From Psychrilyobacter atlanticus DSM 19335 (GTDB taxonomy: Bacteria > Fusobacteriota > Fusobacteriia > Fusobacteriales > Fusobacteriaceae), in NCBI RefSeq assembly GCF_000426625.1, contig NZ_KE384547.1, positions 1,541,159-1,605,158 of the forward strand: DNA of 64,000 bases. Direction: 5' to 3'. A program made the position numbers and the translations under genes. The notes beneath the pieces were generated by a model. It did no database searches. It saw only the letters and a list, made by a program, of their open reading frames with translations, and had not been told where the DNA came from. This document shows, one piece after another, positions 21,710-38,778 of this stretch. Position 1 is the first letter of the stretch. Each line of letters opens with the position of its first letter.

Positions 21710-21746
21710 TTTATCATAACTACTCTCTAAAAGTTTCTATTTTTAG

Positions 21747-22190
21747 TTATTTAACTACAACTATATTTGTAGAAACTCCTCCCCACTCTTTCATACTTCC
21801 CTTATAATTATTTACATCAGAATATCCCAACCTTACTAATTCTTCTGCTAAAACCTGACTTTTTCTACCTGTATTACAATAAGTAATAATTTTAGTTTTC
21901 ATATCCACCCCTTTAGACCTGAGGAGTTCTAGTTTTGCTGAATCATCTTCTATATCCATAAATGTGTCCAAAGGTACATTTATTGCTCCTGAAATATGTC
22001 CACCTTTTATTCCTCTTCCAGGTGTTTTCCCATTGTATACCTCTTCACTTCTCACATCTATAATGACTACATTTTCAGTATTTAATCTTTCCGTTACATA
22101 GTTCATGTCCACAATTTTAATTCCATTTGATGCCATTACTTGAACTGCCATCACAACCATAATTCCTAAAACCAATAATAATTTTTTCAT
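21747..22190 (-). CDS. Single-domain periplasmic rhodanese
   Basis: The 147-residue protein has a cleavable signal peptide (MKKLLLVLGIMVVMAVQVMA) and one rhodanese domain with the active-site loop YCNTGRKS near residue 105. The IDVRSEE and GGHISGAINVP motifs are typical. It should move sulfane sulfur in the periplasm. It is the last gene of the corrinoid operon, after the activase, and resembles the two larger rhodaneses across the terminator. Confidence 0.9.
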   Translation of the reverse strand: MKKLLLVLGIMVVMAVQVMASNGIKIVDMNYVTERLNTENVVIIDVRSEEVYNGKTPGRGIKGGHISGAINVPLDTFMDIEDDSAKLELLRSKGVDMKTKIITYCNTGRKSQVLAEELVRLGYSDVNNYKGSMKEWGGVSTNIVVVK

Positions 22191-22212
22191 TTTATCTTCC
22201 CCCTTTATTTTT

Positions 22213-22974: not shown

Positions 22975-22990
22975 TGCTATCCCCCTGTTT

Positions 22991-24025
22991 TTATTTTTCT
23001 CTAAAACGACTGTACAGTCTGGCTGCTTCCATAAAATATTCTACATTTTTAGGAGATGCATTTATAGGTATATCACATCCTGTAGCCAGAACAAATCCCT
23101 TAGGATTATTGTACGCTTTATCTATACACTTTTTTACTTCCCTATAGATACTTTCCCTTGTCCCATTTAACACGACATTTACAGGGTCAACATTTCCTAT
23201 GATACAAAATTTATCCCCTAGAGTTTCACAGGCTTCCCCTATATCGTCGATATTATCCAGACTGAGAGCTGACAAATTAAGTTTTTTTATCTCCAGCCAA
23301 TGTTTTTTTGTAGTCCCGCATATATGAAGAGCCGGCCCCCTTCCCATCCTATTCCTAATATGTTCTACACATATCTCCAAATAGGGCAGTGCAAATTCTC
23401 TGAAAGTTTTTGTACTTATGAGGGTTCCCGAAGCTACAGGATCAGGCATACTAGGAACTATTCCCATATCCATCACAGCATCCATATAGTTGAGTACACT
23501 TTTGGTGACTCTCTCCAAAAGCTTGTGAATACCCTCTGGATTTTTTCTTATATCCTTTAAGAATTTTTCTGTTCCTATAATCGTTGCGGCAGTACTAAAT
23601 GGTCCTGCGACGCTACTTCCCACAGAAACTTCACCTGAAACTTCGTCTATGAGTATCCTTACTCCCTCTAAAAAAATAGGCAACCTTCCGTCTGATTTAG
23701 AGTCACATATAGGTAGGAGGTCTATATTATCATAGTCTACTTCTACACATCTTTTTACATATGGATAACTGGTCTCTGGCAGATCCAAAACTACTCCTAA
23801 AGCCTCTGGTACTCCATATAATCCAGGTCCTACACTGACACCGTCATGGCCAAAAATTTTATAAGCTTCTATTTCAAGATCTGCCATGAGTCTTCCTGAT
23901 AAATTTACTTCCCTGATATTTTTATTGATGAGCTGAGCTCCAAACATATCTATAAAGGGGCAGGTTAAAATCCTGTCTGCACTTCCTGTTTTTTCTATCA
24001 TCTTTTCTCTTTCTAACGGTTTCAT
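22991..24025 (-). CDS. UroD-family corrinoid methyltransferase 1
   Basis: The 344-residue protein is of the uroporphyrinogen-decarboxylase-like methyltransferase group (MtaA/MtbA/MtsA type). The zinc triad is visible as HICG near residue 245 and ATGCDIP near 320. It also has FAGQ-like early motifs in GPFSTAATIIGT. True UroD enzymes lack this cysteine pattern. These proteins move methyl groups onto or off a corrinoid protein. It is closely like the protein at 27407-28465. The substrate and the direction of transfer are unknown. Confidence 0.88.
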   Translation of the reverse strand: MKPLEREKMIEKTGSADRILTCPFIDMFGAQLINKNIREVNLSGRLMADLEIEAYKIFGHDGVSVGPGLYGVPEALGVVLDLPETSYPYVKRCVEVDYDNIDLLPICDSKSDGRLPIFLEGVRILIDEVSGEVSVGSSVAGPFSTAATIIGTEKFLKDIRKNPEGIHKLLERVTKSVLNYMDAVMDMGIVPSMPDPVASGTLISTKTFREFALPYLEICVEHIRNRMGRGPALHICGTTKKHWLEIKKLNLSALSLDNIDDIGEACETLGDKFCIIGNVDPVNVVLNGTRESIYREVKKCIDKAYNNPKGFVLATGCDIPINASPKNVEYFMEAARLYSRFREK

Positions 24026-24088
24026 ACTCTCTCTCCCTCTTTTTACTGATTTACAAATTCAAAATACTTATCTAGTTTAATTTTAAAG

Positions 24089-24098
24089 GCGATATCGC
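24089..24098. promoter_or_regulatory. Palindrome in the only sizeable gap of the corrinoid operon
   Basis: GCGATATCGC is a perfect palindrome in an AT-rich gap of about 120 bases ahead of methyltransferase 1. It lies between a possible TTGTAG and TAAAAT, a spacing of 15. An internal promoter with operator is possible but weakly supported. Confidence 0.3.
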
Positions 24099-24145
24099 TT
24101 CTACAAATTTTATTCTACCGAGAACGATATATGAATTAACTCCAT

Positions 24146-24862
24146 TTAAAAATAAAAATATAATGCTTCATTTTTATTTTTAATACAGCTGCCTCCTACT
24201 ACTTTAAAACCTTTTTCATTGAAAAATTCATCCTGATAAGATTCCACCGGATAATTTTTCATATCCAGTCTTTTTTTTAGGTCATTGAATAAAACCGGGC
24301 ATATATGAACCACTATATCCAGGTGGGATAATTTATCCAAAAGATCTATAAACCTCTCTACAATCCATCTTTCATGGTGCTTTCCTAATATTTCAGGCAT
24401 GGCAGATGGATCGGCATAAGAAAAGTGTCTTACACCATTTAAATTCAGGGTCTCTACAAATAAAATAAAATTCCTTTCTATTTTTTCAAATGCTGTTTCT
24501 AATTTATCTGTATCTTTTCTCATAAGTCTCAACACTTTACTCATTTCAATAAATGAAATTAAGGTTGTAAATATTCCATCCAGGGAATAAACCTTTGCTT
24601 TTGAGATGGCTTCAATATCTATATTTTCTTTTTTTAAACCTTCCAGATTTAAGAATTCATCTACATTACTACACATTATTTCTTTTACCTTATTATATTC
24701 TGTCATGCCTCCCATGGCACTGAATAATGAATTAGAGAATAAAGGAAAGAACCCTTCTTTTTCCTGTAGAATATAATCTAGCCTACCCTCAGGTATTTCT
24801 AAATTATATCTGTCCATTATTTGTTTTGATATTTCCAGGTCGTTCTGTCTGATACATTTCAT
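24146..24862 (-). CDS. Short, divergent UroD-like protein
   Basis: The 238-residue protein is shorter than its neighbours by about 100 residues. It still shows the family stretch FSYADPSAMPEILGKHHE, which matches AMSDPSATGEILGKKN in the methyltransferase at 26369, followed by VVHICP and a late GGSCIKN. The His-x-Cys and a distal Cys of the zinc site are thus kept while the glycine after HIC is lost. The N-terminal half of the barrel is barely recognisable. It sits between the reactivator and methyltransferase 1 with a good ribosome site. It may be an accessory or catalytically altered subunit, or a decaying copy. Confidence 0.65.
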   Translation of the reverse strand: MKCIRQNDLEISKQIMDRYNLEIPEGRLDYILQEKEGFFPLFSNSLFSAMGGMTEYNKVKEIMCSNVDEFLNLEGLKKENIDIEAISKAKVYSLDGIFTTLISFIEMSKVLRLMRKDTDKLETAFEKIERNFILFVETLNLNGVRHFSYADPSAMPEILGKHHERWIVERFIDLLDKLSHLDIVVHICPVLFNDLKKRLDMKNYPVESYQDEFFNEKGFKVVGGSCIKNKNEALYFYF

Positions 24863-24871
24863 ATTTTTCTC

Positions 24872-26362
24872 CTAAAATTGTAGTTCTTTTATAAAAACAT
24901 CTTGAAATTTTGCACTCTTAGATAGCTCCATTACATCGATCTTAGTAGTCCTTATTTTTTCTCTCATCTCTTTATTGACCAAGTACCCAATACAACCATT
25001 TAATGATGTGTTCCCTGCAAAACTTATTTTCCCGTCAAAATCAGAGATAATACCTATATTTAATATGCTCTCAGCATTCAGGTGGTATCCGAATGATCCA
25101 GCTATTATTACCTCATCGATATCAGATATATCTTTTTCTACTTTTAAAAGGAGTAATTTTACTCCTGCTGCGATGGCTCCCTTGGCTAATTGTATCTGTC
25201 TGATGTCCCCCTGGCTCAAATATATATTTTCAGTTATATAAAACTTTTTATCCCTTAACTTTTCTTTGAATTCTGGTTTCATTCGGGGATTAAGCTTTCC
25301 ACTTTTTAAGACAATCTTGTGTTTTACAAATTCAGACATGATATCTAATAATCCGCTTCCACATATTCCTGTAGGAGTCTCTCCTATTGTTTTTATATTA
25401 AACTTATTATCTGTCTCATCTATCTCAAAACCTTCAATAGCACCATTTCCTGCCCTCATTCCACACTCTATATTCATACCTTCAAATGCAGGCCCGGCAG
25501 CAGTTGATGTCCCATGTAGTTTCCCGTCAATAGATAAAACCATCTCACCGTTTGTTCCAATATCTATAAACAGGGTATTATTCTTTTCCTCTAATTTTAT
25601 AGCTGCTACACCGGAAACTATATCGGCTCCCACATAACTGGAAGCATTGGAAAGTAAGGTTGTCTGTATATTATCTATAAAAAATGATTTTTCCTCTAAA
25701 AATACAGGTTCATAGGGTGAGATCGCAAGTGACTTAGGGTTTTCTCCATAGATCAGATGCTGCATCGTAGTGTTTCCGGCAATTGCTATCCTGTCTGTAG
25801 TTCCTACTTTTTTTATGATATCTTTTATTTGACTTAAGATCGCATTTTGTAAGTTTGAAACATCATTCTGTATACAATATGTAATTCGGGATAGTACATC
25901 TGCTCCATATTCACTCTGATAGTTTAAACCTGAATAATTTCCTGTTATTCTTTTTTTATCCAAATCAATTAACCTGGCCGAAACACCTGTTGTCCCTACA
26001 TCTATAGCAAGTACCCTTCCCTTCTCCTCGGTATCTATATCAAGGTTTATCTCTTCTTCAGATATTTTTAATTCCGAGTCTGTAAGTTCAAAAACCTCTA
26101 CATCTCCTAATACCTTTGTTATACAGGCTAATCGAACTTCTTTAGGGAGATTTTCCTCTATTTTTTCTTTAGGAGATAGATTCCCATTGACTTTTATCTG
26201 ACACTTTTTACAGATCCCCATACAATTGCATGGTGTCTCTATTTTTTCCTCCATAAATCTTATGGCGTCACTTAATATAATTCCTTTTTCTACCTTTATT
26301 TTTTTATTTTTATATCTGACTGTTACCAGACTATGATTCTCTTTCTTATAATTATCTCTCAC
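24872..26362 (-). CDS. RACE-type corrinoid reactivation ATPase/ferredoxin
   Basis: The 496-residue protein joins an N-terminal 2Fe-2S ferredoxin domain (TPCNCMGICKKC near residue 42, further Cys in RLACITK near 75) to a DUF4445/ASKHA ATPase. The ATPase has LAIDVGTTGVSARL, LFIDIGTNGEMVL and CGMRAGNGAIEG. RACE proteins re-reduce accidentally oxidised Co(II) corrinoid to Co(I) with ATP. It starts with GTG, and its frame begins right after the methyltransferase at 26369. One reactivator appears to serve the single corrinoid protein at 28466. Confidence 0.9.
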   Translation of the reverse strand: MRDNYKKENHSLVTVRYKNKKIKVEKGIILSDAIRFMEEKIETPCNCMGICKKCQIKVNGNLSPKEKIEENLPKEVRLACITKVLGDVEVFELTDSELKISEEEINLDIDTEEKGRVLAIDVGTTGVSARLIDLDKKRITGNYSGLNYQSEYGADVLSRITYCIQNDVSNLQNAILSQIKDIIKKVGTTDRIAIAGNTTMQHLIYGENPKSLAISPYEPVFLEEKSFFIDNIQTTLLSNASSYVGADIVSGVAAIKLEEKNNTLFIDIGTNGEMVLSIDGKLHGTSTAAGPAFEGMNIECGMRAGNGAIEGFEIDETDNKFNIKTIGETPTGICGSGLLDIMSEFVKHKIVLKSGKLNPRMKPEFKEKLRDKKFYITENIYLSQGDIRQIQLAKGAIAAGVKLLLLKVEKDISDIDEVIIAGSFGYHLNAESILNIGIISDFDGKISFAGNTSLNGCIGYLVNKEMREKIRTTKIDVMELSKSAKFQDVFIKELQF

Positions 26363-26368
26363 CCATAC

Positions 26369-27358
26369 TCACCCTTTACTCTTTACTGTATCTGTCATTA
26401 CTTTTAAATTCTTGATAGATGTACTCATGGCCAGTCCGCAGGCTGGCGATACAATGCTGGTTCCGTCTTTTATAGCTGTCTCTGTATGTAATTTAACTTT
26501 TTCATCCTCTCCCTGGTCTAAAAGCTGAGTACTCACATTCCCCATGATTGGAGCCTGGATTATTTCTTTAGCCTGCCTTACCCCTACTGCTGAATCAAAA
26601 CTGAGGGAATCTGCTCCAGATTCATTTAAGCTTTCTAAAATACTCTTACTCTTGCCACATATATGAATAATTATTTTTATTCCTTTTTCATGTACTGCTT
26701 CTGAGATCTTTTTATACATAGGTATCATAAATTCTTCAAAATTTTTCTTCCCTAAGATCTCCCCTGTAGCACTTGGATCAGACATAGCTATAAGATCAGC
26801 ACCACTTTCTATCATCTCAGCGGCAAATTTGATTAAATAATCTGTAACGACTTCTAAAAATTTCATAGCCATAACTTTATCTTTTCTCATCATCTTATAA
26901 TAGTCCGTTGGTTCAATAACAGATGTCACCACACTCATGGGACCTGTTATATTACCGATTACCGGGATCTCATCATTTTTTAGCTTTGAGATTGCTTCCA
27001 GCACAACCAAGGCCCTTTTAGAATGTTTTACTTTTATCACATCTAAATGATTTAAGATATCCTCATTATATTTAGTTATTCTCGGTTCAACTAATTTACT
27101 TCCCAAATCCACTTCCACATCAAAAGGTTCACTCTCTATTGTCATACAAAAAGGGACTCCATAATTTTCAAACCCTGTTATTTCATGTACTTTTACAGCA
27201 GCTTCTACCATTGCATCTACATCACTGTTATGATTTTTTTTCATCCCTTCTACAACTTCTGTTACCGCAGCATTCATCATCCCTCCCGGGCAGATAACAG
27301 GCGGCCTGTCTGTATTCTTTCCATTTAAGACATCTATTAGTCTTTGTTTTTCAGTCAT
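26369..27358 (-). CDS. UroD-family corrinoid methyltransferase 2 (MtbA-like)
   Basis: The 329-residue protein has ADLIAMSDPSATGEILGKKNF and the zinc site HICGKSKS near residue 225. The distal cysteine lies in VSPACGLAMST, which is the MtbA/MtaA arrangement. MtbA-like enzymes pass the methyl group from methyl-corrinoid to a thiol or other acceptor. Coenzyme M is not expected in this organism, so the acceptor may be tetrahydrofolate or another thiol (inference). It is seven bases from the reactivator start. Confidence 0.88.
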   Translation of the reverse strand: MTEKQRLIDVLNGKNTDRPPVICPGGMMNAAVTEVVEGMKKNHNSDVDAMVEAAVKVHEITGFENYGVPFCMTIESEPFDVEVDLGSKLVEPRITKYNEDILNHLDVIKVKHSKRALVVLEAISKLKNDEIPVIGNITGPMSVVTSVIEPTDYYKMMRKDKVMAMKFLEVVTDYLIKFAAEMIESGADLIAMSDPSATGEILGKKNFEEFMIPMYKKISEAVHEKGIKIIIHICGKSKSILESLNESGADSLSFDSAVGVRQAKEIIQAPIMGNVSTQLLDQGEDEKVKLHTETAIKDGTSIVSPACGLAMSTSIKNLKVMTDTVKSKG

Positions 27359-27406
27359 ATTCCCTCCATATTTAGGATAAAAAGTTTTTTTATCTTCTGC
27401 TAAAAA

Positions 27407-28465
27407 TTATTCGGTCTCACTCTTAAAATCATAAGCACCATAACTTCTCGCTGCATCCATCATTGCGTCTATATTTTCAAATGGTACTTTTTTTGGAATT
27501 TCACACCCTGAAGACAATACAAAACCACCTTCATACCCTTCCATCTCTTGTAATACTTTTTTACAGACCTCCATTATATCTTCCCTTGTTCCAAATAATA
27601 ATTCATCTGCCGGCGTTATATTTCCCAGTATTGCTGATTTCCCAGCTACCTTTTCCCTGGCAACACTTAAATCACAGATATCTATACTTAAAATATCTGC
27701 TTTTGTATTTGCCATGAGATCAATAATTTTATGTGTCTTCCCACAGATATGAAGAGCTATAAGGGAGTTCATCTCATGAGCTAAGTCTACTAATTCTTTA
27801 GTAAATGGTAATGAAAATTTCTTATATAATTTAGGACTTAGTATACTTCCAGAAGAAATCGGCTCTAAAATTATAGGCAACGCATTATGATCTATGCATT
27901 CCTTCATGAAATTTTTACAGCTTTCGGTTGTCATTTTAAGTAAATCCATACAAAACTCAGGATCATTATACATCTCCTTCACAAAATCCTGAGTTCCTCT
28001 CAAAGTAGCAGCAGTAGATAACGGACCAGAAAAACATACAGCTGAAATTACCTCATCTCCGACTTTTTCACTTAATATATCCAAAGCTTCAAAAAAGATA
28101 GGGAATTTCCCGTCATTTTTATCTGCGACCTTAATCTTATTCAGATCTTTTCTTGATTGTATAACAGGATTATGAGTGCATGCTGGTTCATCGTCATAAT
28201 AGACTAATTCCTGCCCCATGGCTTCTGCAACATAAGAAGTATTGGTAAATAAATATGACAAATCATACTTATATCTTTCATATGCAGCAATATAGGAGTC
28301 AGCCATAACCTTCGGATCTAGTTGAAATTCATTGATAGTTCTGCCTATTAGATGAGATGCATTTGATGTTACTATGGGCATACATGGAACCCTGTCCATA
28401 GGCTTCCCCTGTAAAAATGCCATAACTCTTTCTTTAGATGTCAATATATCATTTTTTACTTCCAT
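27407..28465 (-). CDS. UroD-family corrinoid methyltransferase 3
   Basis: The 352-residue protein carries the zinc site HICGKTHK near residue 245 and SSGCEIP near 318, and CFSGPLSTAATLRGT in the barrel. Its ATG begins directly after the stop codon of the corrinoid protein, so the two are translationally coupled. Pairing with a dedicated corrinoid protein is typical of the substrate-specific first methyltransferase. I therefore suspect it is the substrate enzyme and that methyltransferase 2 faces the acceptor; the sequence does not prove this. Confidence 0.87.
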   Translation of the reverse strand: MEVKNDILTSKERVMAFLQGKPMDRVPCMPIVTSNASHLIGRTINEFQLDPKVMADSYIAAYERYKYDLSYLFTNTSYVAEAMGQELVYYDDEPACTHNPVIQSRKDLNKIKVADKNDGKFPIFFEALDILSEKVGDEVISAVCFSGPLSTAATLRGTQDFVKEMYNDPEFCMDLLKMTTESCKNFMKECIDHNALPIILEPISSGSILSPKLYKKFSLPFTKELVDLAHEMNSLIALHICGKTHKIIDLMANTKADILSIDICDLSVAREKVAGKSAILGNITPADELLFGTREDIMEVCKKVLQEMEGYEGGFVLSSGCEIPKKVPFENIDAMMDAARSYGAYDFKSETE

Positions 28466-29113
28466 CTATGCAGCCTCATGTATTTCTTTTATCTTTCTGA
28501 CAGCTTCATTGGCATCCTTAGTATACAGATCTGCTCCGATCTCTGTTGCAAACCTCTGGGAGATAGGCCCTCCTCCTATGGCAACCTTTACAGATTCTCT
28601 CATACCTTCAGATTTTAATTTTTCAATAACAGTTTTCATACCTTCCATGGTAGTTGTCATGAGGGTAGACATAATAATAAAGTGAGCCTCTACTTCCTTT
28701 GCTTTATTTACAAATTCATCTAGTATTACATCTCTTCCCAGGTCATGGACCTCTATACCTCCGGCTTCTAACATGATTTTAACCAAATTCTTTCCGATAT
28801 CATGGGTATCCCCTTCTACTACACCTATTACTGCTCTTATTTTATCGCTAGATACATCTCCTTCTAAGTGAGGTTTTAATACGTCTATTCCCATATTCAT
28901 AGCATCTGAACAGATTAACACTTCAGGCAGAAAATATTCTTCCTCTTCATACAGCTGACCTACAACTTCCATTCCTGCGATCAAACCTTCCTGGATAGTT
29001 TCTTTTGCCGGTATTCCCATTTCAAGTGACTTTTTACATAGTTCCTCTACAACTTCTTCTTCCATCTCAATTAAATTGTTTTTAATTTCTTCAAATAATT
29101 CTTTTTTAGTCAT
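28466..29113 (-). CDS. Corrinoid (cobalamin-binding) methyl carrier protein
   Basis: The 215-residue protein has an N-terminal four-helix cap (GMEVVGQLYEEEEYFLPEVL) and a Rossmann B12 domain with VEGDTHDIGKN. The His of DTHDIG is the lower cobalt ligand. A later IGGGPI completes the nucleotide-tail pocket. This is the MtmC/MtbC/MtaC type of methyl carrier. It is the first gene of the operon, behind AAGGGAG and a long conserved leader. It is the only corrinoid carrier for at least four methyltransferases in the window. Confidence 0.95.
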   Translation of the reverse strand: MTKKELFEEIKNNLIEMEEEVVEELCKKSLEMGIPAKETIQEGLIAGMEVVGQLYEEEEYFLPEVLICSDAMNMGIDVLKPHLEGDVSSDKIRAVIGVVEGDTHDIGKNLVKIMLEAGGIEVHDLGRDVILDEFVNKAKEVEAHFIIMSTLMTTTMEGMKTVIEKLKSEGMRESVKVAIGGGPISQRFATEIGADLYTKDANEAVRKIKEIHEAA

Positions 29114-29364: not shown

Positions 29365-29808
29365 CTTTTTCTTTCACTTCACCTTTGGTTTATTTTTATA
29401 TTTTTGCATCAAAAAAGGTGACATAAATAACTACTATAAATTAATAGTTTCATATGTATTGTGTGTGTTTTATATTTTTGCATTAAAAAATATAAAGGTT
29501 TCTATTTTAACTAATTTATATAACTAGTTGTAATATTGTATTGTTTATTTGTTGTTCTTTTTATAATGATTGTTGGAACTAGGCGTTCCGAAAATAATTA
29601 TTTAGGAATAGATAAAATATTAAGGTCAAAATTTCTCGTTAATATATTTATTTATATCCATCATAATTTTAAAATGGGTCGAAAGTTAAAGAGTGAAAAG
29701 AAATATATGTTTATAATATTGAAGCAATAGGTCCACCTAATATATAATTTTTTCAAATTCTAAAAATTTCATTATGACTTCATCCAGAAGTTTATAATCT
29801 ATTCAGGC

Positions 29809-29832
29809 TCAATTGAATCTTAATTTAAACAT
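29809..29832 (-). CDS. Leader ORF MFKLRFN, copy 1
   Basis: ATG at 29832 stands six bases after AAAGGAG and is followed by six codons and TGA. The same peptide, start context and stop occur at 38565-38588. TTC replaces TTT for the second Phe, a silent change. A second in-frame TGA follows after one codon in both copies. It could be a leader peptide that couples translation to folding of the downstream RNA. Confidence 0.45.
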   Translation of the reverse strand: MFKLRFN

Positions 29833-29863
29833 AGTTTTCTCCTTTAAAAATTTATTTACATAA

Positions 29864-29892
29864 TTTATACCATTTTTTTCCCGACTTGTCAC
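29864..29892 (-). promoter_or_regulatory. Promoter of the corrinoid operon leader
   Basis: On the minus strand GTGACA (29887-29892) and TATAAA (29864-29869) are 17 bases apart; the start would be near 29857. The -35 hexamer overlaps the base of the terminator of the upstream CobW gene. The equivalent site at 38621-38649 has the same spacing. Confidence 0.65.
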
Positions 29893-29925
29893 TAAAAACT
29901 AGGATTTTCTCACTAGTTTTTAGTG
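29890..29925 (-). terminator. Terminator-like hairpin after the CobW gene
   Basis: Perfect 13-bp arms CACTAAAAACTAG and CTAGTTTTTAGTG surround a 10-base loop. The minus-strand tail is GACAAGTCGGGA, poor in U, so termination may be incomplete and the ABC operon might read into the corrinoid operon. Confidence 0.6.
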
Positions 29926-29937
29926 GTCTTTTTCTCT

Positions 29938-30732
29938 TTATTTAAATAATTTTCTTATATTTTCCCTATCTAAATCCCCTATAAGAATTAATTTATTGTT
30001 TCTTTTCACCCTTTCTTCAACTAGTTCATATTCTCCATTTACAATATTAAATGAACAATTCCCCAAAAAACCCTTTCCTCTGAGGACCTTTCCATACTGC
30101 TCAGAGGACAATGTTTCCAATATCTGTTTTAATCTTTCTATGTCTATTTTAAAATCCGTTATAGACATACTTTTTATGTCTTTAATTTCAAAAATAGTTT
30201 TTGCTTTGGAGTTTATTTCTTTCAGTGATCTTTCTATTTCAGAGATATTTTCAACTTCTAGATCATCTATTTTACTTATATAGAGGGTTTTGGCATTTTC
30301 TATTTGATCCATGAAGAAACTACCGAATATCTCTATCTGCTCCAGATAATTTTTTCCGTCAATAACCGTAGTTACCGCAACAATCTCGCATCTTTTGGAT
30401 ATCTTTTTACTTTTTAATATCTTTAATATTTCTCCTAATATCCCCAAGCCTGTAGGCTCAATTATTATCCTGTCGATATCATTTTCTATTATCTTTTCCA
30501 GAGATTCCTTAAAGTTTTCCTTTAAGACACAGCAGATACATCCGCTGGAGATCTCTTCTATTTTTACCCCTTCCACTATAAATTCACTGTCTATGGATAT
30601 ATCCCCGAATTCATTTTCAATTAAAACTATTTTTTCTTCACTAAACTCTTCTTTCAACTCTTTTAATCTCTTGTTTATAAAAGTGGTTTTCCCCGCTCCT
30701 AAAAATCCAGAAACAATTTCAACCTTAATCAT
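29938..30732 (-). CDS. CobW/COG0523-family GTPase
   Basis: The protein of about 264 residues has the P-loop GFLGAGKTT at residues 9-17, the metal-binding SGCICC near 62-67, and the switch EPTGLG near 95. COG0523 proteins hand zinc, cobalt or other metals to client enzymes with GTP. Zinc-dependent UroD methyltransferases and a corrinoid pathway next door make either metal plausible. I start at ATG 30732 because TAGGTG lies at ribosome-site distance and the P-loop position then fits the family. A GTG nine bases upstream is also possible. Confidence 0.88.
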   Translation of the reverse strand: MIKVEIVSGFLGAGKTTFINKRLKELKEEFSEEKIVLIENEFGDISIDSEFIVEGVKIEEISSGCICCVLKENFKESLEKIIENDIDRIIIEPTGLGILGEILKILKSKKISKRCEIVAVTTVIDGKNYLEQIEIFGSFFMDQIENAKTLYISKIDDLEVENISEIERSLKEINSKAKTIFEIKDIKSMSITDFKIDIERLKQILETLSSEQYGKVLRGKGFLGNCSFNIVNGEYELVEERVKRNNKLILIGDLDRENIRKLFK

Positions 30733-30784
30733 CCTCATCACCTACTTTGATATTGTTATAATCCCATCTATACAAACCTTTTTT

Positions 30785-31795
30785 TTATTTATTATTTTCT
30801 ATAAAAATTCTTATCTCTTCATAACTAGCTCTTCCCCATTTAGATACAGTCTCTAAATTTTCGATAGGAGTCGTATTGATACAAGAACACCCAAATGCCA
30901 TAAGATAATTGTCATATTTTCTCATTTTATTATGTAGTTCAGCGGTTTTATCAGTTACCTCATCCACACTACCCCTTCCAAGAAGATATATAGGGTCTAG
31001 ATTTCCTATAACTACTTTATCTTTAGGAAAAATTTCTATAATCTCTTCCATATCCATTATTTGATCAAAACTAAATGCATCTATTGGAGTCTCTAATATA
31101 TAAGGATAAATCCTACTTGTATCTCCACATATATGCACACATTTCCAGCAGTCTAAATTTTTGAAAATTTTATTTAGATTATCTAATACCATCTCAGGAA
31201 ACTTTTTTGGTGCCAACATAACTGTAGATGGTTCTGCTATAGATATCATCTTTACACCTGCTCCTACTATGGCTTTTGCATATCTATCCACTACCTCACC
31301 TGTAAATTCTAAAAGTTTTTTTACAAAGTCAGGATTTTTTATGGTTGCCTTGAGTAATCCTGTGGCTCCAGCTAACTGTACAGCCATCGTAAAAGGTCCT
31401 TGTAGAGATACAAACAATGGTTTATCTATATTTTCTGAAATAAGATTTAACGATTTCAAATTAGTTTTCATCCTTTTATTTGTATATGGATCAGGAATCT
31501 CTAATTTTTCTAAATCTTCCACAGTTTTTATCGGATGATCCATTACCATGGAAAAGTCATACCCTGGCTTTTTAAGAGCAACTCCCATAACATCACAGAA
31601 TAGATTTCCTTCATCTAAAGCATAGATAAAATCACTAGGAAATTTTTCCTCCATCTTCTTTGCCAGCATCAACTGCTCTTCGGGAGAAGCATAGATCTCT
31701 TCCATGGGTTTTTCTACCATAATAGGTCCATTGGCTCCCATAAATGGCAGGAGATATCCCCTTTCCTCCCGATTTATATATTCCATTAAAGTCAT
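30785..31795 (-). CDS. UroD-family corrinoid methyltransferase 4
   Basis: The 336-residue protein has VSLQGPFTMAVQLAGATG, the zinc site HICGDTSR near residue 220, and a distal FGCSCINTTP near 312. It is encoded in the ABC-importer operon, three bases from the DUF4091 gene, not in the corrinoid operon. This placement suggests that it acts on a product of the imported compound, with the corrinoid protein supplied from the other operon. Confidence 0.88.
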   Translation of the reverse strand: MTLMEYINREERGYLLPFMGANGPIMVEKPMEEIYASPEEQLMLAKKMEEKFPSDFIYALDEGNLFCDVMGVALKKPGYDFSMVMDHPIKTVEDLEKLEIPDPYTNKRMKTNLKSLNLISENIDKPLFVSLQGPFTMAVQLAGATGLLKATIKNPDFVKKLLEFTGEVVDRYAKAIVGAGVKMISIAEPSTVMLAPKKFPEMVLDNLNKIFKNLDCWKCVHICGDTSRIYPYILETPIDAFSFDQIMDMEEIIEIFPKDKVVIGNLDPIYLLGRGSVDEVTDKTAELHNKMRKYDNYLMAFGCSCINTTPIENLETVSKWGRASYEEIRIFIENNK

Positions 31796-31798
31796 AAT

Positions 31799-33514
31799 TT
31801 ATCTCCTCTTTATAATTTCTACAAGTTTATCCTTTATAACCATATATTTGTTGTAATCTACAGAATAATTCATATCTACAGTAAATTCTTCCGTAGCTTT
31901 CATGTCTTTTTTATCTCCTAAAACTTCCATCATAAGAGTCTCTATTCTTTCCCTTCCGATCTTCTTTTCAGCCATCTTCATTATTTCCTGATCCTGAATT
32001 CCAAACCTCAGATTTTCCCACCTTATAGATCTTATAGGTTTCATATCTTTCCCAGGATAAACAAAGAACATATCTCCTGCCTTCCATCTGGGATATTTAT
32101 AGCTGACATTTTCAAAGGGCTTGCTTGTCCAGAGTGCATAGTCCCATCTTAAAAAACCATTTAGTCCCATATAGTAGGAGTACCAGCCTGTCAACCTACT
32201 TTCCATCAGTGGTGAACTTATGAAGTGGTTTAATTTATCCGGGAACCAGCATACATACCAGGTTAATTTTCCTTTTATTTTTTCTTCTATATCTTTTAAA
32301 ATGTTTTTACTTTTTAATAGTAGAGGCAGAGAAAGAGATACATCTGAAATCCCATCCAATCTATCGGTAAAACTATCTTCATGGAGGGCAGTTTTTATAA
32401 GAAGATCCATTTCAGCTGAATCCTTTAAAAATTTTGACCATTTTTTAAAGGACTCTGGATTTTTAGGCATATCGCTGATTACCCTTACTCTGTCCATAAG
32501 GTTCTTTTCATTAAAAAATTCAAATACCTGTCTGATATATTCTCCCAGATCTTTTTTATTGTCTATGTAGCCATGGGTTCGACTCTCTTCTGAAAAGAAA
32601 CTTATCCTTATATAATCGTCATAATCCTTTAGAGGGTTCCCAAAATCTGTCCTCTGCCAGCTTGCCAAAAGACCAAAGATATCAATCTCATTTTTCATCC
32701 CGTATTTAAAGCAAATCTCCAAATATCTTTCCAAGGCAGTAAAGTCACACTGTATCTTCCCTTTTATATCTTTTTTTACTCCTATGATATTATGTTCAAA
32801 GAGATTTGAACAATTTTCCTCTACCTGGAAGCATCCCTGTCCCTCCCAGGAAAAATCAGAAGCCACCACAGTGATCACTTTTTCTCCCAGTGAAGCCAGC
32901 TCCGCTGTATAATTCTCTATTATCTTAAAGTGATCATCACTCCAAAATTCTACCTCATACATCCTTGCCCAAGATGAAAGGTGCTGCCATAGATCCAGGT
33001 GAAAGTCAGATTCTTTCAACTCAGGGAGAATTTTATCTACTACAGCGATATCTAAGTTTATAACCTGCTCCTTTATCTCTGTATCATACCCTTCCTGACT
33101 CAATAAATTTATGGTAATATTCAGGTTATCTCCACAATATTCTTTATCCACTCTTCCCTCTACCCAGATCATAGTCGGTTTACCTGCCTCATTGTATAGA
33201 TACTCCTTCTTCAATATAGGATCTGTTATGAGGGTCTTTGAATCATCATCCAATACATATCCCAGAAAATATCCTTTAAGGTCTGTATTTTCTCTTTTTT
33301 CAAGGTCTATTCTCACCCTTTTTTTCAATCCTTTATAACCTATGTGGTTATGAGATCCCAGAGAGAGCAGTATACTTTCTTCACTGGTTAGGGCTATCTG
33401 AAATGCAAATTTCTCACCCTTTAATACCCTTAAATTTAATTTATCTTCCACAGGAAGACTGGTACCGTCTATATGTTTGAATGCTGAATTATAAAGTTTA
33501 TATTGAATATTCAT
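31799..33514 (-). CDS. DUF4091 protein, glycoside-hydrolase-like, cytoplasmic
   Basis: The 571-residue protein starts without a signal peptide. An N-terminal beta domain (about 1-180) is followed by a TIM-barrel-like region with DFHLDLWQHLSSWA and VVASDFSWEGQGCF. A DUF4091 region follows with WYVCWFPDKLNHF, GFLRWDYALW, GDMFFVYPG and SIRWENLRFGIQDQE. DUF4091 is linked to GH123-like N-acetyl-hexosaminidase folds. A cytoplasmic glycosidase acting on the sugar brought in by the adjacent ABC permeases is likely; the sugar itself is unknown. It is tightly packed between the GNAT and methyltransferase 4. Confidence 0.82.
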   Translation of the reverse strand: MNIQYKLYNSAFKHIDGTSLPVEDKLNLRVLKGEKFAFQIALTSEESILLSLGSHNHIGYKGLKKRVRIDLEKRENTDLKGYFLGYVLDDDSKTLITDPILKKEYLYNEAGKPTMIWVEGRVDKEYCGDNLNITINLLSQEGYDTEIKEQVINLDIAVVDKILPELKESDFHLDLWQHLSSWARMYEVEFWSDDHFKIIENYTAELASLGEKVITVVASDFSWEGQGCFQVEENCSNLFEHNIIGVKKDIKGKIQCDFTALERYLEICFKYGMKNEIDIFGLLASWQRTDFGNPLKDYDDYIRISFFSEESRTHGYIDNKKDLGEYIRQVFEFFNEKNLMDRVRVISDMPKNPESFKKWSKFLKDSAEMDLLIKTALHEDSFTDRLDGISDVSLSLPLLLKSKNILKDIEEKIKGKLTWYVCWFPDKLNHFISSPLMESRLTGWYSYYMGLNGFLRWDYALWTSKPFENVSYKYPRWKAGDMFFVYPGKDMKPIRSIRWENLRFGIQDQEIMKMAEKKIGRERIETLMMEVLGDKKDMKATEEFTVDMNYSVDYNKYMVIKDKLVEIIKRR

Positions 33515-33523
33515 CGATTTCTC

Positions 33524-34597
33524 CTATTGGTAATTTAAATTTTCTGTCCATGGAAAGGGAAGTGGAAATACCGTATCTATTAACTCATCCAATTTCCCTC
33601 CATCTATACTTTTTTTATCTTCTTTTTTCTCAAAAATTAATTCGAGGAGTTCCCTATGAGATTGTATTTCCAATTTTTCTGATCCTAAACTCAGTTGATA
33701 TTTACCATTTTTTTCCATAACTTGTAATTTTTCTATCTCTTCATCTATACAGTATTGTTTAAAATATGGCTTTAACTCCTCCATGAGGCCCACAAAGTCT
33801 ACTATCTTTAGAACTCCCGAAAGATACTCCTCTTCTCCTCGGTATCCTGCAGGAGCTACTTCTCCATGAGGTAGAATATAATCAATTTTATCCACTCCTA
33901 ATTGATTTCCTAGAAGAGCCAGAGCATCAAATATTTCACTCTTGTCTCCGACAGCTTCCTTTACTACTATTCTTTCAGGTATTTTTTTCAGGATTATATA
34001 TCCCCTTAGACCATCTTTATCTTCCAGTACATATCTTTTATACGATGTATTTCCAAAGGGAAAGGTTCCTGAATCTATAAGAGTTTCAAAATCTCTACCC
34101 AGCCTTAAATACCTGGTCCCTTGAGAATTATAGATCTTCTTTATAGGTAAAATATCCTCTTCCCTATACTCTCTAACAATAAACTTTAAAGTCGGAAGAC
34201 CAGCAGAAATTTTGTATCTCCTGCAATTTTTTACCTCACTGGCTCCCCAGTTTTTATACAAACTTCTCGTGCTGGATATAAGGCATAGATTTACTCCTAT
34301 CTCCTTCATTCTATTTTCCACATCTTTTAAAACTTTTGAAGAATATCCCCTTCCCCTATAATTAGGATGGGTACATACAGCCCCTATAGATCCTGCCGAT
34401 ATGGGTATTCCCTCTATCAAGATCTTTTGAGGGAGGAAATTTACAATAGAGATTATATCTTTATCATCTTTTATTATCCTCATATTTTCCCTATTTTCAG
34501 ATAAAAGCAGCAACGGGAATTCCTTCTCCATTGTGTGAGGAAGATCTCCCCTGCCGGTCCTGAATACACAATTTATAAGATCGATTACCTCTTCCAC
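33524..34597 (-). CDS. GNAT acetyltransferase, Eis-like long form
   Basis: The 357 residues include an N-terminal GNAT domain with the acetyl-CoA loop CTHPNYRGRGYSSKVL near residue 75. A second GNAT-like part and a C-terminal sterol-carrier-like region give the Eis arrangement. The GTG at 34597 is the first ordinary start codon, but it has no ribosome site at proper distance. The frame stays open upstream, and residues such as IEVRGTEKNEVEEV look like the usual start of the fold. Initiation from ATA or ATT near 34615-34630, overlapping the permease end, is possible. The substrate is unknown, perhaps an amino sugar. Confidence 0.75.
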   Translation of the reverse strand: MEEVIDLINCVFRTGRGDLPHTMEKEFPLLLLSENRENMRIIKDDKDIISIVNFLPQKILIEGIPISAGSIGAVCTHPNYRGRGYSSKVLKDVENRMKEIGVNLCLISSTRSLYKNWGASEVKNCRRYKISAGLPTLKFIVREYREEDILPIKKIYNSQGTRYLRLGRDFETLIDSGTFPFGNTSYKRYVLEDKDGLRGYIILKKIPERIVVKEAVGDKSEIFDALALLGNQLGVDKIDYILPHGEVAPAGYRGEEEYLSGVLKIVDFVGLMEELKPYFKQYCIDEEIEKLQVMEKNGKYQLSLGSEKLEIQSHRELLELIFEKKEDKKSIDGGKLDELIDTVFPLPFPWTENLNYQ

Positions 34598-34632
34598 CTC
34601 ATTTTTTTCGGTTCCTCTTACCTCTATAGTTT

Positions 34633-35433
34633 CTATCCCTTTAATCCTGATAGTGCCACCCCCTCTTCAAACTGTCTCTGAAGGAGGATATAAAATAGAA
34701 ATGAAGGTAAAAATGTCATAGTAGCTCCCGCCATGACCAACCCGTAATTAACAGTATACTGGGCATTCATACTGGCCATCCCCACTGTAAGGGTTCTCAT
34801 AGGATCTGATGTAGTAGCTATAAGAGGCCACAAAAATTCATTCCAAGCCCCTATAAATGTGAATATTGAAAGAGCTATTATTGCCGGTTTTATAAGCGGC
34901 AGCACTATCTCCATAAATATTTTAAATTCTGAGCATCCATCTATTCTGGCAGAGTCCATGAGATCTCTCGGTACCTTTAAGATACTCTGTCTCATTATGA
35001 ATACTCCCACAGCAGTTGGAAGAGGAAGTATTAACGCCATATAAGTATTTAACCACCCTAGATGCCTCATTATTACATAGAGAGGCAGGAGAGTTACCTG
35101 GGAAGGTACAATAAGAGTTAATAACATAAAGAAAAATATCTTTTCCCTCCCCTTAAACTCTAATTTTGCAAAGGCATACCCTGCCATAGAACTAAATATC
35201 ACATTTAAAACTACTCCGCTCAGGGAAATAAATAAACTATTTAGAAAATATCTAATAAAATTTGTGTTATAAAAAATCTCTTTATAATTTCTCAATGTCA
35301 AATCGTCTAGAGCAAACTTAAAATTATAAGCCGTATAAGTTACCCTTAGAGATGTCATAAACATATAGAGAAATGGAATTATCATAAAGCTGGAGATTAA
35401 TATTAAAATCAGCCTGCCTAATTGTTTTTTCAT
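34633..35433 (-). CDS. Sugar ABC permease, MalG/UgpE type
   Basis: The 266-residue protein has six membrane helices and the EAA loop near residue 160 (DSARIDGCSEFKIFMEIVLP), which docks the ATPase. This is the CUT1 family. It follows its MalF-like partner by nine bases. The operon contains no ATPase, so the pair probably uses a shared MsmX/MalK-like ATPase encoded elsewhere. Confidence 0.93.
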   Translation of the reverse strand: MKKQLGRLILILISSFMIIPFLYMFMTSLRVTYTAYNFKFALDDLTLRNYKEIFYNTNFIRYFLNSLFISLSGVVLNVIFSSMAGYAFAKLEFKGREKIFFFMLLTLIVPSQVTLLPLYVIMRHLGWLNTYMALILPLPTAVGVFIMRQSILKVPRDLMDSARIDGCSEFKIFMEIVLPLIKPAIIALSIFTFIGAWNEFLWPLIATTSDPMRTLTVGMASMNAQYTVNYGLVMAGATMTFLPSFLFYILLQRQFEEGVALSGLKG

Positions 35434-35442
35434 CCTTTCCTC

Positions 35443-36378
35443 CTAATAAACTTCTGATTTATCTTTCTTTAAAAATCTTTTCTGAACTATCGCTGCAAGA
35501 GCCGAAAAGAAAAGTAATATATTGGCGATTGTCATAGCATACCCTGCATTTAAATTTTTAAATGCATTGTTATATATATGGAGGACAAGGGTCATAGAAG
35601 AATTTCCAGGCCCTCCTCCTGTCAATGTATAGATTAGATCAAAGGTCTGAAGTGACCAAACCATACCTAAAAAAACTACCATAATTGTCGTAGGTTTTAA
35701 TAATGGAAGAGTTATATGATAAAAAACACTCCACCTACCTGCTCCATCTACCTTGGCAGCCTCTGTATAATTTTTAGGGATTTCCATCAACCCGGCGATA
35801 TATAGGATCATAAAGTAACCTGTATTCTTCCATACTGTTATTCCCATAAGAACAAATAACACTATAGACGAATCTCCTAACCAGTTAGGTTGTGTTATAT
35901 TTAATATATTAAGGATCATATTAAGGGGAGAACTTTCTCCATTTAATAGTATTCTCCATACAATACTTACTAATACCATAGATGAGATTACAGGAACAAA
36001 CATAGCTCCCTTTACAAATTCTGTCAATCTGCTTTTCCCTCTGCTTACCAGCCAGCTAGCCATAAATAAAGAAAATATAGTTTGAGCAGGAACTACTCCC
36101 AATGTAAATAAAAAAGTATTTTTCAGAGATGCCTTAAAAGTTTTATCTAAAAGAAGATCTTTATAATTTGAAAGGCCTACAAATCCTGGCGCCTTTATGA
36201 TGTTATAGTCTGTAAAACTAAAATATATTGAAAGAAAAATAGGAATCACATAAAAAGTAAACAGTAGGAGGCTGAGGGGCCCTATAAAACCATAGGGCTT
36301 TCCTTTACCTGCTAACCTTTTTATGCAAAATCTTTTCTTAGGTTGTTCATTACTTAAAAGAATTTCTACGTTTTGCAT
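35443..36378 (-). CDS. Sugar ABC permease, MalF/UgpA type
   Basis: The 311-residue protein has an N-terminal cytoplasmic stretch, six helices and the EAA loop near residue 215 (EAAKVDGAGRWSVFYHITLP). A GGPGNSSMTLV turn is typical of CUT1 permeases. It is the second gene of the operon, 14 bases after the binding protein. Confidence 0.93.
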   Translation of the reverse strand: MQNVEILLSNEQPKKRFCIKRLAGKGKPYGFIGPLSLLLFTFYVIPIFLSIYFSFTDYNIIKAPGFVGLSNYKDLLLDKTFKASLKNTFLFTLGVVPAQTIFSLFMASWLVSRGKSRLTEFVKGAMFVPVISSMVLVSIVWRILLNGESSPLNMILNILNITQPNWLGDSSIVLFVLMGITVWKNTGYFMILYIAGLMEIPKNYTEAAKVDGAGRWSVFYHITLPLLKPTTIMVVFLGMVWSLQTFDLIYTLTGGGPGNSSMTLVLHIYNNAFKNLNAGYAMTIANILLFFSALAAIVQKRFLKKDKSEVY

Positions 36379-36391
36379 ATCCAGCTCCTTA

Positions 36392-37660
36392 TTATTTAGC
36401 TAATAATCTATTAGAATACTCTGCTGCTTCATCTAAAGATTCCTTAGCACTTTTTTCTCCAGCCATCATCATTTGAAGCTGTTTCCAAAGATATTCATAT
36501 ATCTCTACTCCATGAGGTCCTACTACAAGTGGTCTATATACTCCTTCTTGAGTTTCGATCATCTTTTGTAATCTTGGGTCTCCTTGATATGGCTCTCCCT
36601 TAGCAATAGGTGCTCTTGGGTGATGTTTATGGAATTTAGTCATAGATTCAGTACTTAACATATGTTCGATTAATCCAAAAGCTAATTCTTTATCTTTAGC
36701 ACCTGACATAAGTACTAATTGATCTACTGATGCAAAAGTTCCTTTATCTTCATCTTCAAGGGAAAGAATTATTCCATAGTTTAAATCAGGAAATGATTTA
36801 TCTAAGATCTCTCCTGCTGCTGAAGATAAATATATAGAAAATAGTGATTTTCCAGGACCAAATGTTGTTTGTAACATCTCTTTATTAGTTTGTGCCATAT
36901 AGTATGAAGGCAATACATCATATTTAAATTTTAAGTCTTTTAAGAATTTAGCAGTTTTTACTCCAGCTTCATTATTAAATTTTACAGATTTTAAATCATC
37001 ATTGAATATGTCTCCACCTGCCTGCCAAAGGAATCCATACCAGTTCCAGTTAAGATCTCCAAAATAAGGTGCTCCCCATCCTTGAGAGAATCCCCATTGA
37101 TCTGCTTTTCCGTCTTTATTTGTATCTTGAGTTGCTTTTACTGCACATCTTATAAAATCTTCCCATGTAACAGGAACATCTTCACCTATAGATGCAAGGA
37201 TATCTTTATTATAGTAAATAACTGCAGGGTTAGCTGCTTCTATCCCAAGTCCATACATCCCCCCCATCATCTTTCCATGTTTGATGTATATATAATTTTC
37301 ATAGTCTTCCTTTGTAAGGTAAGGTGTAAGATCTTCAACTGCTCCCATTTCTATAAATTGTGGGAACATTTCAGCATACATATACCCGATATCCGGACCT
37401 TGTCCTGAAGCTATTCCAGCAGCATATTTTTCAGAATAATTTTCCCATGGAATAATCTCTAATTCTACATCTACATTATTTGCTTCTCCATATTCTTTCA
37501 TGATTGGTCCCCATACAGCTTGATCATTTTCTCCGATAGGTGGTAACCATACAACTAATTTTTCCTTCTTCTCCTTCTTCCCCCAAAAAGCCATGGCCTC
37601 TGTACTTGTTACTGCAGTCAATAAAACTATCGACAATATTAACGCTAATATTTTTTTCAT
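36392..37660 (-). CDS. Extracellular sugar-binding protein (family 1)
   Basis: The 422-residue protein has a cleavable signal peptide ending TEAMA near residue 24 and no lipobox Cys, so it should be free in the periplasm of a diderm cell. The mature part begins KLVVWLPPIGEND and shows SGQGPDIGYMYAEMFPQF and a tryptophan-rich stretch NWNWYGFLWQAGG typical of oligosaccharide binding. It is first in the operon, behind AGGGAGG and a leader of about 950 nt. The ligand is likely sugar-like. Confidence 0.92.
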   Translation of the reverse strand: MKKILALILSIVLLTAVTSTEAMAFWGKKEKKEKLVVWLPPIGENDQAVWGPIMKEYGEANNVDVELEIIPWENYSEKYAAGIASGQGPDIGYMYAEMFPQFIEMGAVEDLTPYLTKEDYENYIYIKHGKMMGGMYGLGIEAANPAVIYYNKDILASIGEDVPVTWEDFIRCAVKATQDTNKDGKADQWGFSQGWGAPYFGDLNWNWYGFLWQAGGDIFNDDLKSVKFNNEAGVKTAKFLKDLKFKYDVLPSYYMAQTNKEMLQTTFGPGKSLFSIYLSSAAGEILDKSFPDLNYGIILSLEDEDKGTFASVDQLVLMSGAKDKELAFGLIEHMLSTESMTKFHKHHPRAPIAKGEPYQGDPRLQKMIETQEGVYRPLVVGPHGVEIYEYLWKQLQMMMAGEKSAKESLDEAAEYSNRLLAK

Positions 37661-37803
37661 TTTTTCCTCCCTATTTTTTGTTTTATGTAAAAAGATAATA
37701 TATTTACTCTATTTATGAATATTTAAAGCAACCACTCTCTTTTTAGATACAGATAGTTCTTTCTTTCACTTTATTTTTATTTCACATTCCTCTCCTTTTC
37801 TTA

Positions 37804-37835
37804 TTACCTGTTTATTTTAAGGCACAAACAGGTAA
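37804..37835 (-). other. Leader hairpin TTACCTGTTT/AAACAGGTAA
   Basis: Perfect 10-bp arms surround a 12-base loop, about 145 bases ahead of the binding-protein gene. No U-run follows. It is in the unshared, gene-proximal part of the leader. Confidence 0.45.
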
Positions 37836-37968
37836 CGAGAAAAAGGCTAATGCCTGATTCATTTTCTATATTTAATCTTAAAATATTTATTGTTATATGA
37901 AATATTCTGAATTATTTGAAGATATGGCTCTTATCACTCAAGATTTATAAATTTAATCTATCCTGGCA

Positions 37969-38032
37969 ACATCCTTCCAGAATCAACTGAGGCTTGAAAG
38001 TTATGGATAAATTTTTAAAATTAATAATTTAT
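37969..38032 (-). repeat. Leader direct repeat, unit 1
   Basis: This unit matches 38101-38162 in the blocks AATCAACTGAGG, TTGAAA and TTAAAATTAATAATTTAT (plus-strand reading). A weaker match to the GCCTGAG...TTCTGGATGAAG block of the conserved leader element suggests that it is a third, degenerate version of the same module. Confidence 0.6.
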
Positions 38033-38100
38033 CAGAATTGCTTTAAAATACAATAGTTAGCATTGACAAAGTTTATTAAATTTTAATATCTAATTCAATA

Positions 38101-38162
38101 ACACCCTTCTAAAATCAACTGAGGTTTGAAAAAATGAATGAAATTTAAAATTAATAATTTAT
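38101..38162 (-). repeat. Leader direct repeat, unit 2
   Basis: This is the partner of 37969-38032, about 70 bases away. Together they lie between the conserved leader element and the binding-protein gene. Confidence 0.6.
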
Positions 38163-38201
38163 ATTTTTATGATAACTTTGAATTTAATGCATAACAAGTG
38201 A

Positions 38202-38221
38202 CCCCCTGGTTTACCAGAGAG
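38202..38221 (-). other. GC-rich hairpin at the end of leader element copy 2
   Basis: On the minus strand CTCTCTGG and CCAGGGGG pair (with two G-U pairs) around TAAA. It is the most GC-rich stretch of this AT-rich leader. A longer stem TCACCTTT/AAAGGTGA occupies the same relative place in copy 1 near 29377-29422. Confidence 0.45.
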
Positions 38222-38564
38222 GATATATTTTTGCATTAAAAAATATGGCATAAATAACCAGTATAATTTAATAGTTTAATATGCATTCAAATTAAATTTT
38301 CTTCGTTTTTTACAATGATTGTTAGTTGGAACAGAGTTGTTCCGAAAGTAATTATTTTAGGAATAGATAAAGTATTAAGGTCATAATATCTCGTTAATAT
38401 CTTTATTTATATCCACAATAATTCTAAAATGGATTGGAAGTTAAAGAGTGAATTGGAATAAATGTTTATCATATTGAAATAGTTAGCACTACCTAATATA
38501 TCCTTTTTTCAGATTCTAAAAGTTCCATTATAACTTCATCCAGAAGTTTATCAGCTACTCAGGC

Positions 38565-38588
38565 TCAATTAAATCTTAATTTAAACAT
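38565..38588 (-). CDS. Leader ORF MFKLRFN, copy 2
   Basis: ATG at 38588 follows AAAGGAG by seven bases and encodes the same seven residues as copy 1, then TGA GCC TGA. Conservation of ribosome site, start and stop in two diverged copies suggests that translation of this short frame matters. Confidence 0.45.
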   Translation of the reverse strand: MFKLRFN

Positions 38589-38620
38589 AATTCCTCTCCT
38601 TTAAAAATTTATTTACATAA

Positions 38621-38649
38621 CTTATACCACTTTTTGCTTGATTTATCAA
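38621..38649 (-). promoter_or_regulatory. Promoter of the ABC/DUF4091 operon leader
   Basis: On the minus strand TTGATA (38644-38649) and TATAAG (38621-38626) are 17 bases apart; the start would be near 38614. Position and spacing match the copy 1 promoter. Confidence 0.65.
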
Positions 38650-38778
38650 TTAAAAAATGAAATTCACTTGAATTATTGCTCTATTTAGTTCTTAAATCCA
38701 CTCATTATGATCAATTAAAAAGCAAAGTAACATTATACACAAGCAACATTCTATATTTGTAAAATAAACTATAAGAAT

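Follow-up and report, generated by a model that had tools for sequence, protein, structure and literature searches.

A conserved leader with two in-frame UGA codons as a candidate selenocysteine-sensing attenuator of three operons in Psychrilyobacter

Amino-acid operons (trp, his, leu) are preceded by attenuators that contain a short open reading frame (ORF) with a strong Shine-Dalgarno sequence and early sensing codons; the position of the ribosome chooses between alternative pairings of the RNA, and the genes under control are connected with the amino acid that is sensed. Rho-dependent leader ORFs (tnaC, speF orf34, topAI uORF) are followed by a segment rich in C and by a long stretch that is not translated and holds no intrinsic terminator. 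To our knowledge, no natural leader peptide senses a recoded stop codon. A literature search for one returned a single match, an engineered transcriptional switch for an unnatural amino acid in which a UAG in the leader peptide lies ahead of a rut site (PMC6412442). Here we analyse a stretch of 64,000 nucleotides (the window) from Psychrilyobacter atlanticus DSM 19335 (contig NZ_KE384547.1, positions 1,541,159 to 1,605,158), in which two minus-strand operons, one beginning with a corrinoid protein (corr) and one with a sugar-binding protein (sug), are headed by homologous leaders. These leaders have the general layout of both kinds of system, and we propose, with a probability of roughly 0.6, that they are leader-peptide attenuators that use UGA codons for selenocysteine (Sec) as sensing codons and control operons of organoselenium or organometal chemistry.

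Alignment of the minus strands of 29892-29401 and 38650-38226 gave about 81% identity over about 425 nt, close to the 400 bases of the original prediction. A third copy (tvp) was found on another contig of the same genome (G000:C3:121811-122164), 85-91% identical and about 460 nt upstream of a TVP38/DedA-like gene, and the sug and tvp leaders remain homologous past 38226. Together with eight copies in the congeneric genomes G002, G006 and G007, the three copies of this genome (G000) form a family of 11 leaders. One conserved leader family, larger than first noted, heads three operons, and its orthologous members precede the same operons in all four genomes. The gene order is kept across genomes in both regions (GGDEF / leader-sugar-binding protein-permeases-GNAT-GH123-...-URO-D-CobW / leader-corrinoid protein, and rhodanese-TVP38 / leader-TVP38-Sec-rhodanese). 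Between species, identical columns make up 75-97% of the leader core, as against 0-40% over much of the intergenic sequence next to it, and the similarity is therefore far beyond chance and under selection. With the most divergent copy as query, a DNA search across 98 genomes of the phylum returned no leader outside the genus; the sole match in a pattern scan of further genome contigs was apparently G006 itself, and plasmids gave no match.

Both leaders of the window begin at equivalent promoters with the 17-bp spacing that had been predicted (Table 1), and TGN-TATAA is present in all 11 copies. A sigma-54 promoter (TGGTATAA-N4-ATGTA) was ruled out, since TGTTATAAA occurs in one copy and the TTGAYA-17 spacing is preserved. 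From the predicted starts at 29857 and 38614 there are 744 nt to the first gene of the corr operon and 954 nt to that of the sug operon, in line with the 740-950 nt estimated before. The leader had been described as noncoding, and this does not hold, because each copy has a Shine-Dalgarno sequence (AAAGGAG or a near variant, AAAGGGAGG in one copy) followed by a short ORF that starts with ATG (GTG in one copy). Across the family the ORF reads MFKLRFN-UGA-GCC-UGA-(I/V/A)..KLLDEV..E(F/L)L(E/G)SEK..., with a few residue changes, and in almost all copies it ends around codon 31-32. Its two UGA codons are invariant (22 of 22 over the 11 copies), and the corr peptide would have 31 residues with both read as Sec, or 7 with UGA as a terminator. 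Of 69 long ORFs in the window and in the region around the third copy, 6 end with UGA, the rarest stop here, and two of these six are Sec codons. Two further coding candidates were dropped: a second conserved ORF in domain II (MDINKYINEIF), whose start and stop vary, and a Sec readthrough fusing UroD2 to RACo at 26369, which is merely an in-frame TGA stop ahead of the next gene.

Behind the UGA codons lies a hairpin that resembles a selenocysteine insertion sequence (SECIS), with a GG-containing TGGAT loop, a stem of 5-6 bp and a distance of 16 nt from the second UGA and 22 nt from the first. In loop, stem and spacing it fits the published model of the bacterial SECIS (bSECIS; PMC13188914). 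A strict hairpin test was passed by 9 of the 2246 TGAs of the window, and among its 63 TGANNNTGA sites such a hairpin occurs solely at the two leaders. The same test recovered a 5-nt TGGAA loop 17 nt after the UGA of GrdB in G000. This genome encodes a tRNA-Sec (65.7 bits, exceeding the cutoff), SelB (369 bits) and the selenoproteins FdhH (...HCARL-U-HSATVAG), GrdB (...TST-U-GTCTRCG) and PrdB (...TAG-U-GTCHR). SelB is present in all four genomes that carry the leader, is common in the family without being universal, and was absent from the five tested genomes of the other families of the order. The tvp operon itself holds a double-domain rhodanese whose catalytic position is a UGA (...DDFTLY-U-TMGIRSG), and four of four genomes keep it. 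The two invariant UGAs, the Sec machinery and the Sec genes in the operons of the leader family would be in keeping with Sec as the sensed residue.

The leader can form two alternative helices that share a C-rich 3' arm (region 3). H1 joins region 3 to the Shine-Dalgarno sequence and first codons of the ORF (17 bp, 93-98% of alignment cells paired), and H2 joins it to codons 21-28 (14 bp, 99-100% paired). Columns 187-196 are common to both helices, which are thus mutually exclusive, and in 10 of the 11 copies H1 is stronger than H2. In one copy (G006b), column 192 has changed from U to C, and its partners, columns 41 (H1) and 123 (H2), have each changed from A to G; a second H2 pair changes from G-C to A-U in two corr copies, and domain II and the GGAAC hairpin have one compensated pair each. 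The original prediction held that a lack of homologues and covariation would speak against a functional element; homologues were found, and covariation in limited measure. A translatable, conserved ORF with its own Shine-Dalgarno sequence and mutually exclusive helices with compensatory changes, few as these events are, are the features expected of an attenuator.

Region 3 is rut-like in all copies, with 0-2 G and 13-16 C per 60 nt and 7-11 YC steps. No intrinsic terminator was detected between leader and first gene in the corr or sug leader, so that Rho-dependent termination would be the likely output; the lone minus-strand terminator site is that of the upstream GGDEF gene. A boxA/Nus element was considered for CTCTTTAAC and ruled out, as the rrn loci examined have no boxA-like match ahead of 16S. 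The internal stems noted before, GGAAC/GTTCC and ATATTTTT/AAAAATAT, were recovered in both leaders of the window. The latter (29401-29494; 38225-38248) is not evident in the tvp leaders and therefore lies outside the minimal element. Further down, the sug leader has a second conserved element, a 32-nt repeat (TTTCAAGCCTCAGTTGATTCTGGAAGGATGTT) at 37968-37999 and 38100-38131, 132 nt apart and 88% identical; G002 and G007 have a similar stretch in their tvp leaders.

From these parts we infer the decoding of UGA, the output through Rho and the direction of the switch. Transcription would begin shortly 5' of the Shine-Dalgarno sequence, and the hairpin past the second UGA would serve as SECIS. When Sec-tRNA is plentiful, SelB would deliver Sec and the ribosome would clear both UGAs and cover codons 21-31; when Sec is scarce, translation would halt at codon 8 or 10 and leave codons 21-28 exposed. 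These codons and the ORF Shine-Dalgarno sequence would compete for region 3, so that the position at which the ribosome stops picks H2 or H1. The chosen helix would set the passage of RNA polymerase through the long untranslated leader into the three operons, with Rho terminating at or past region 3. UGA decoding in bacteria is known to vary with the availability of selenium, and termination follows where a ribosome does not insert Sec (PMC4513850); combined with the layout of the helices, this indicates that the parts of a Sec-sensing leader-peptide attenuator are probably present. We lean slightly towards operons that are ON when Sec-tRNA is limiting, because the freed H2 would hide the rut-like segment and because the operons resemble systems for acquisition or demethylation.

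Several observations weigh against a Sec-sensing attenuator or against this direction. The codons after the UGAs show no synonymous excess over the 11 copies, and most changes there alter the residue. Conservation of the protein on both sides of the UGA, by which selenoprotein genes are recognised, is not seen, and the leader ORF is therefore not classed as a functional seleno-peptide. Two of the residue-altering changes late in the ORF (E25G, E22K) are accounted for by helix pairing, and this part of the ORF seems to be constrained as RNA and not as protein. The hairpin, at -4.2 to -7.1 kcal/mol, misses the minimum free energy limit of -7.5 kcal/mol set by the bSECIS model (PMC13188914), as does that of the Sec-rhodanese of G000 (-6.9 kcal/mol), and we therefore call it SECIS-like and not a proven SECIS. 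Of random TGAs, 8-30% fit a loosely set SECIS model, and FdhH and PrdB of G000 fail the strict hairpin test. The covariation comes from very few events, in 11 copies that are related to one another, and the overall covariation term of RNAalifold for the leader alignment is zero, so the support it lends to H1 and H2 is limited and not decisive. Finally, region 3 is sequestered in H1 and H2 alike, so that structure alone leaves ON and OFF unfixed, and the Sec-rhodanese and the Sao selenoproteins described below would favour operons that are ON when Sec is available.

The lack of synonymous bias past codon 10 would also agree with UGAs that are plain stops, the seven-residue MFKLRFN sensing some other signal by arrest or slow termination, as TnaC does, with the helices responding. 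Very short arrest-type leader peptides exist, and one UGA stop would be enough for such a switch. We regard this as unlikely, though it is the best placed of the alternatives, since it accounts neither for a second UGA in frame nor for a hairpin placed as in a SECIS. Moreover, neither UGA is ever UAA or UAG, which are the common stops, and the residues of MFKLRFN themselves vary among the copies (L to S, R to K, F to S, N to K).

The original prediction favoured a trans-regulated attenuator or a ligand-binding RNA. A shared and conserved regulatory leader, with an attenuator as its probable form, stands; the ligand-binding or trans-regulated part is not supported, as the evidence points to a UGA-containing peptide read by the ribosome. 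A novel riboswitch, or a site bound by a protein that acts in trans, with the ORF incidental to either, could account for the long structured region that is conserved, including domain II and the GGAAC hairpin. We consider it improbable, given that the Shine-Dalgarno sequence and ORF are conserved and that H1 is built from the former and H2 from the codons of the latter. Rfam had no match above gathering score in the window, as foreseen when no known riboswitch was recognised.

A block by SelB is of nearly the same low probability, marginally lower. The conserved hairpin would bind SelB, with or without Sec-tRNA, and obstruct translation or transcription without insertion of Sec, a mode proposed for the SECIS-like element upstream of selAB in E. 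coli. The presence of SelB agrees with it; two in-frame UGAs behind a strong Shine-Dalgarno sequence, and the helix H2 formed by late codons, would be left unexplained. A functionless recent duplication or mobile-element remnant, the alternative first put forward and suggested by three similar copies in one genome and a family limited to one genus, is very improbable, because other species keep each copy in front of the same operon while the neighbouring intergenic DNA is not conserved, and compensatory changes have occurred.

The genes behind the leaders were examined for their predicted chemistry. The corr operon encodes a corrinoid protein, several MtaA-like URO-D methyltransferases, a RACo-like activator, a BcrAD ATPase, a rhodanese and a double-cubane reductase. 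The sug operon encodes a sugar-type ATP-binding cassette (ABC) transporter with a sugar-binding protein and two permeases, a GNAT protein, a GH123 glycosidase, an MtaA-like URO-D methyltransferase and a CobW GTPase, and the tvp operon encodes TVP38, the Sec-rhodanese and an ABC transporter. The CobW-family GTPase (29938-30741, minus strand) has a weak match to the NCBIfam model of a CobW-related selenoprotein (71 bits, cutoff 180). In the sug operon of G007, an insert of 6 kb carries SaoE, SaoC, SaoX, SaoB, SaoP, SaoA and SaoL, each above its NCBIfam cutoff, with an in-frame UGA in SaoB and SaoP. These belong to the Sec-assisted organometallic (SAO) operon (Haft and Gwadz 2023, as cited in PMC13188914); all seven genes lie behind the sug leader in G007 and are absent from the sug operon of the window. 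The sug operon of G002 has a gap of similar size at the insertion point, and the corresponding gap in L054 is a probable further site of the set.

In the GH123 enzyme the catalytic DE pair is DM in three of three orthologues, the stabilising Asp being kept and the acid/base Glu replaced by Met. In related sequences, 94% of which keep DE, the Asp stabilises the 2-acetamido group and the Glu acts as acid/base (PMC11087588). Viral contigs, scanned with GH123, yielded no relative. Thio- and seleno-glycosidases that act on a good leaving group can dispense with the general acid, as myrosinase does. We predict that GH123 is a thio- or seleno-glycosidase and a candidate for acting on methylseleno-N-acetylgalactosamine (methylseleno-GalNAc), which is the mammalian selenosugar (PMC5372522). 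The methylselenol freed in this way could then be demethylated by the methyltransferases. We infer from the gene content that the three operons serve organoselenium or organometal chemistry. The fuller proposal, a natural attenuator for the 21st amino acid in which Sec-UGAs and their own SECIS gauge charged tRNA-Sec and set an organoselenium/organometal regulon that includes this predicted seleno-glycosidase, we hold with slightly less confidence than the attenuator itself, at somewhat better than even odds.

Table 1. Coordinates of the leader features, operons and related loci. Positions without a locus identifier are those of the window.
Feature	Position	Strand	Description
corr promoter	29864..29892	minus	sigma-70-type: GTGACA, 17 bp, TATAAA, extended -10 TGG; from sequence
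corr Shine-Dalgarno	29839..29845	minus	AAAGGAG; also 5' arm of H1
corr leader ORF	29737..29832	minus	MFKLRFN-UGA-A-UGA-IDYKLLDEVIMKFLEFEKIIY-stop; same ORF in 11/11 copies
corr first in-frame UGA	29809..29811	minus	codon 8; invariant 11/11
corr second in-frame UGA	29803..29805	minus	codon 10; invariant 11/11
corr SECIS-like hairpin	29777..29791	minus	ACTTC-TGGAT-GAAGT
corr H2 5' arm	29750..29771	minus	ORF codons 21-28
corr region 3	29680..29713	minus	C-rich, nearly G-free, rut-like; 3' arm of H1 and H2
corr domain II	29596..29668	minus	long conserved AU-rich hairpin
corr GGAAC/GTTCC hairpin	29575..29589	minus	
corr operon	20371..29113	minus	
sug promoter	38621..38649	minus	TTGATA, 17 bp, TATAAG, extended -10 TGG; from sequence
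sug Shine-Dalgarno	38602-38596	minus	
sug leader ORF	38493..38588	minus	MFKLRFN-UGA-A-UGA-VADKLLDEVIMELLESEKRIY-stop
sug in-frame UGAs	38567-38565; 38561-38559	minus	
sug SECIS-like hairpin	38533..38547	minus	
sug H2 5' arm	38508..38527	minus	
sug region 3	38435..38468	minus	C-rich; 3' arm of H1 and H2
sug domain II	38350..38423	minus	hairpin
sug GGAAC/GTTCC hairpin	38328..38343	minus	
sug operon	29938..37660	minus	
GH123	31799-33514	minus	orthologues L056:6433-8148, L054:6457-8160
SAO insert	L056:8522-14036		between GH123 and URO-D gene of G007 sug operon
Sec-rhodanese	L079:17987-18934 (G000:C3)		also in L055, L057, L059
Asn-run leader	L062:3806-3500	minus	before asnA in L062; also L060 near 3967, L061 near 4145

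How bacteria measure selenium and tune their Sec-related genes is poorly understood. If our proposal is true, the reading of charged tRNA-Sec by a short element in cis would offer a direct and testable answer to how selenium is sensed, and the leader would be a ready-made reporter of selenium status. The operons for corrinoid demethylation, for GH123, sugar transport, methyltransferase and SAO functions, and for TVP38 and Sec-rhodanese, whose roles were so far unassigned, would form one regulon. Such a joint regulon predicts a route for the use of methylated selenium compounds, for example the selenosugar excreted by mammals. In the parts of the SAO literature that were covered, no shared regulatory leader is named for that operon.

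Leader-peptide control appears to exist in these bacteria, as suggested by a classical attenuator before asnA in the same genus, where an AAT run gives the leader peptide MFKLIMIS-(Asn)n, and whose promoter, Shine-Dalgarno sequence and first codons (MFKL) are similar to those of the leader described here. Compared with the attenuators of amino-acid operons, the sensing codon would here be a stop codon, UGA, that is recoded and accompanied by a SECIS-like hairpin of its own; unlike the trp type, the leader has no intrinsic terminator, and one leader heads three different operons. Compared with tnaC, speF orf34 and topAI, the switch would be the decoding of UGA and not an arrest peptide, and the action of Rho is here a prediction. 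As in bSECIS elements, a small GG-containing apical loop follows the UGA at 16 nt, but it lies in a leader ORF of about 31 codons and not in an enzyme gene, and its stem is weaker than the limit (PMC13188914). A further parallel is the engineered switch, in which a recoded stop in a leader peptide likewise governs transcription through a rut site; that switch is synthetic and uses UAG, whereas the present one would be natural and use Sec-UGA (PMC6412442).

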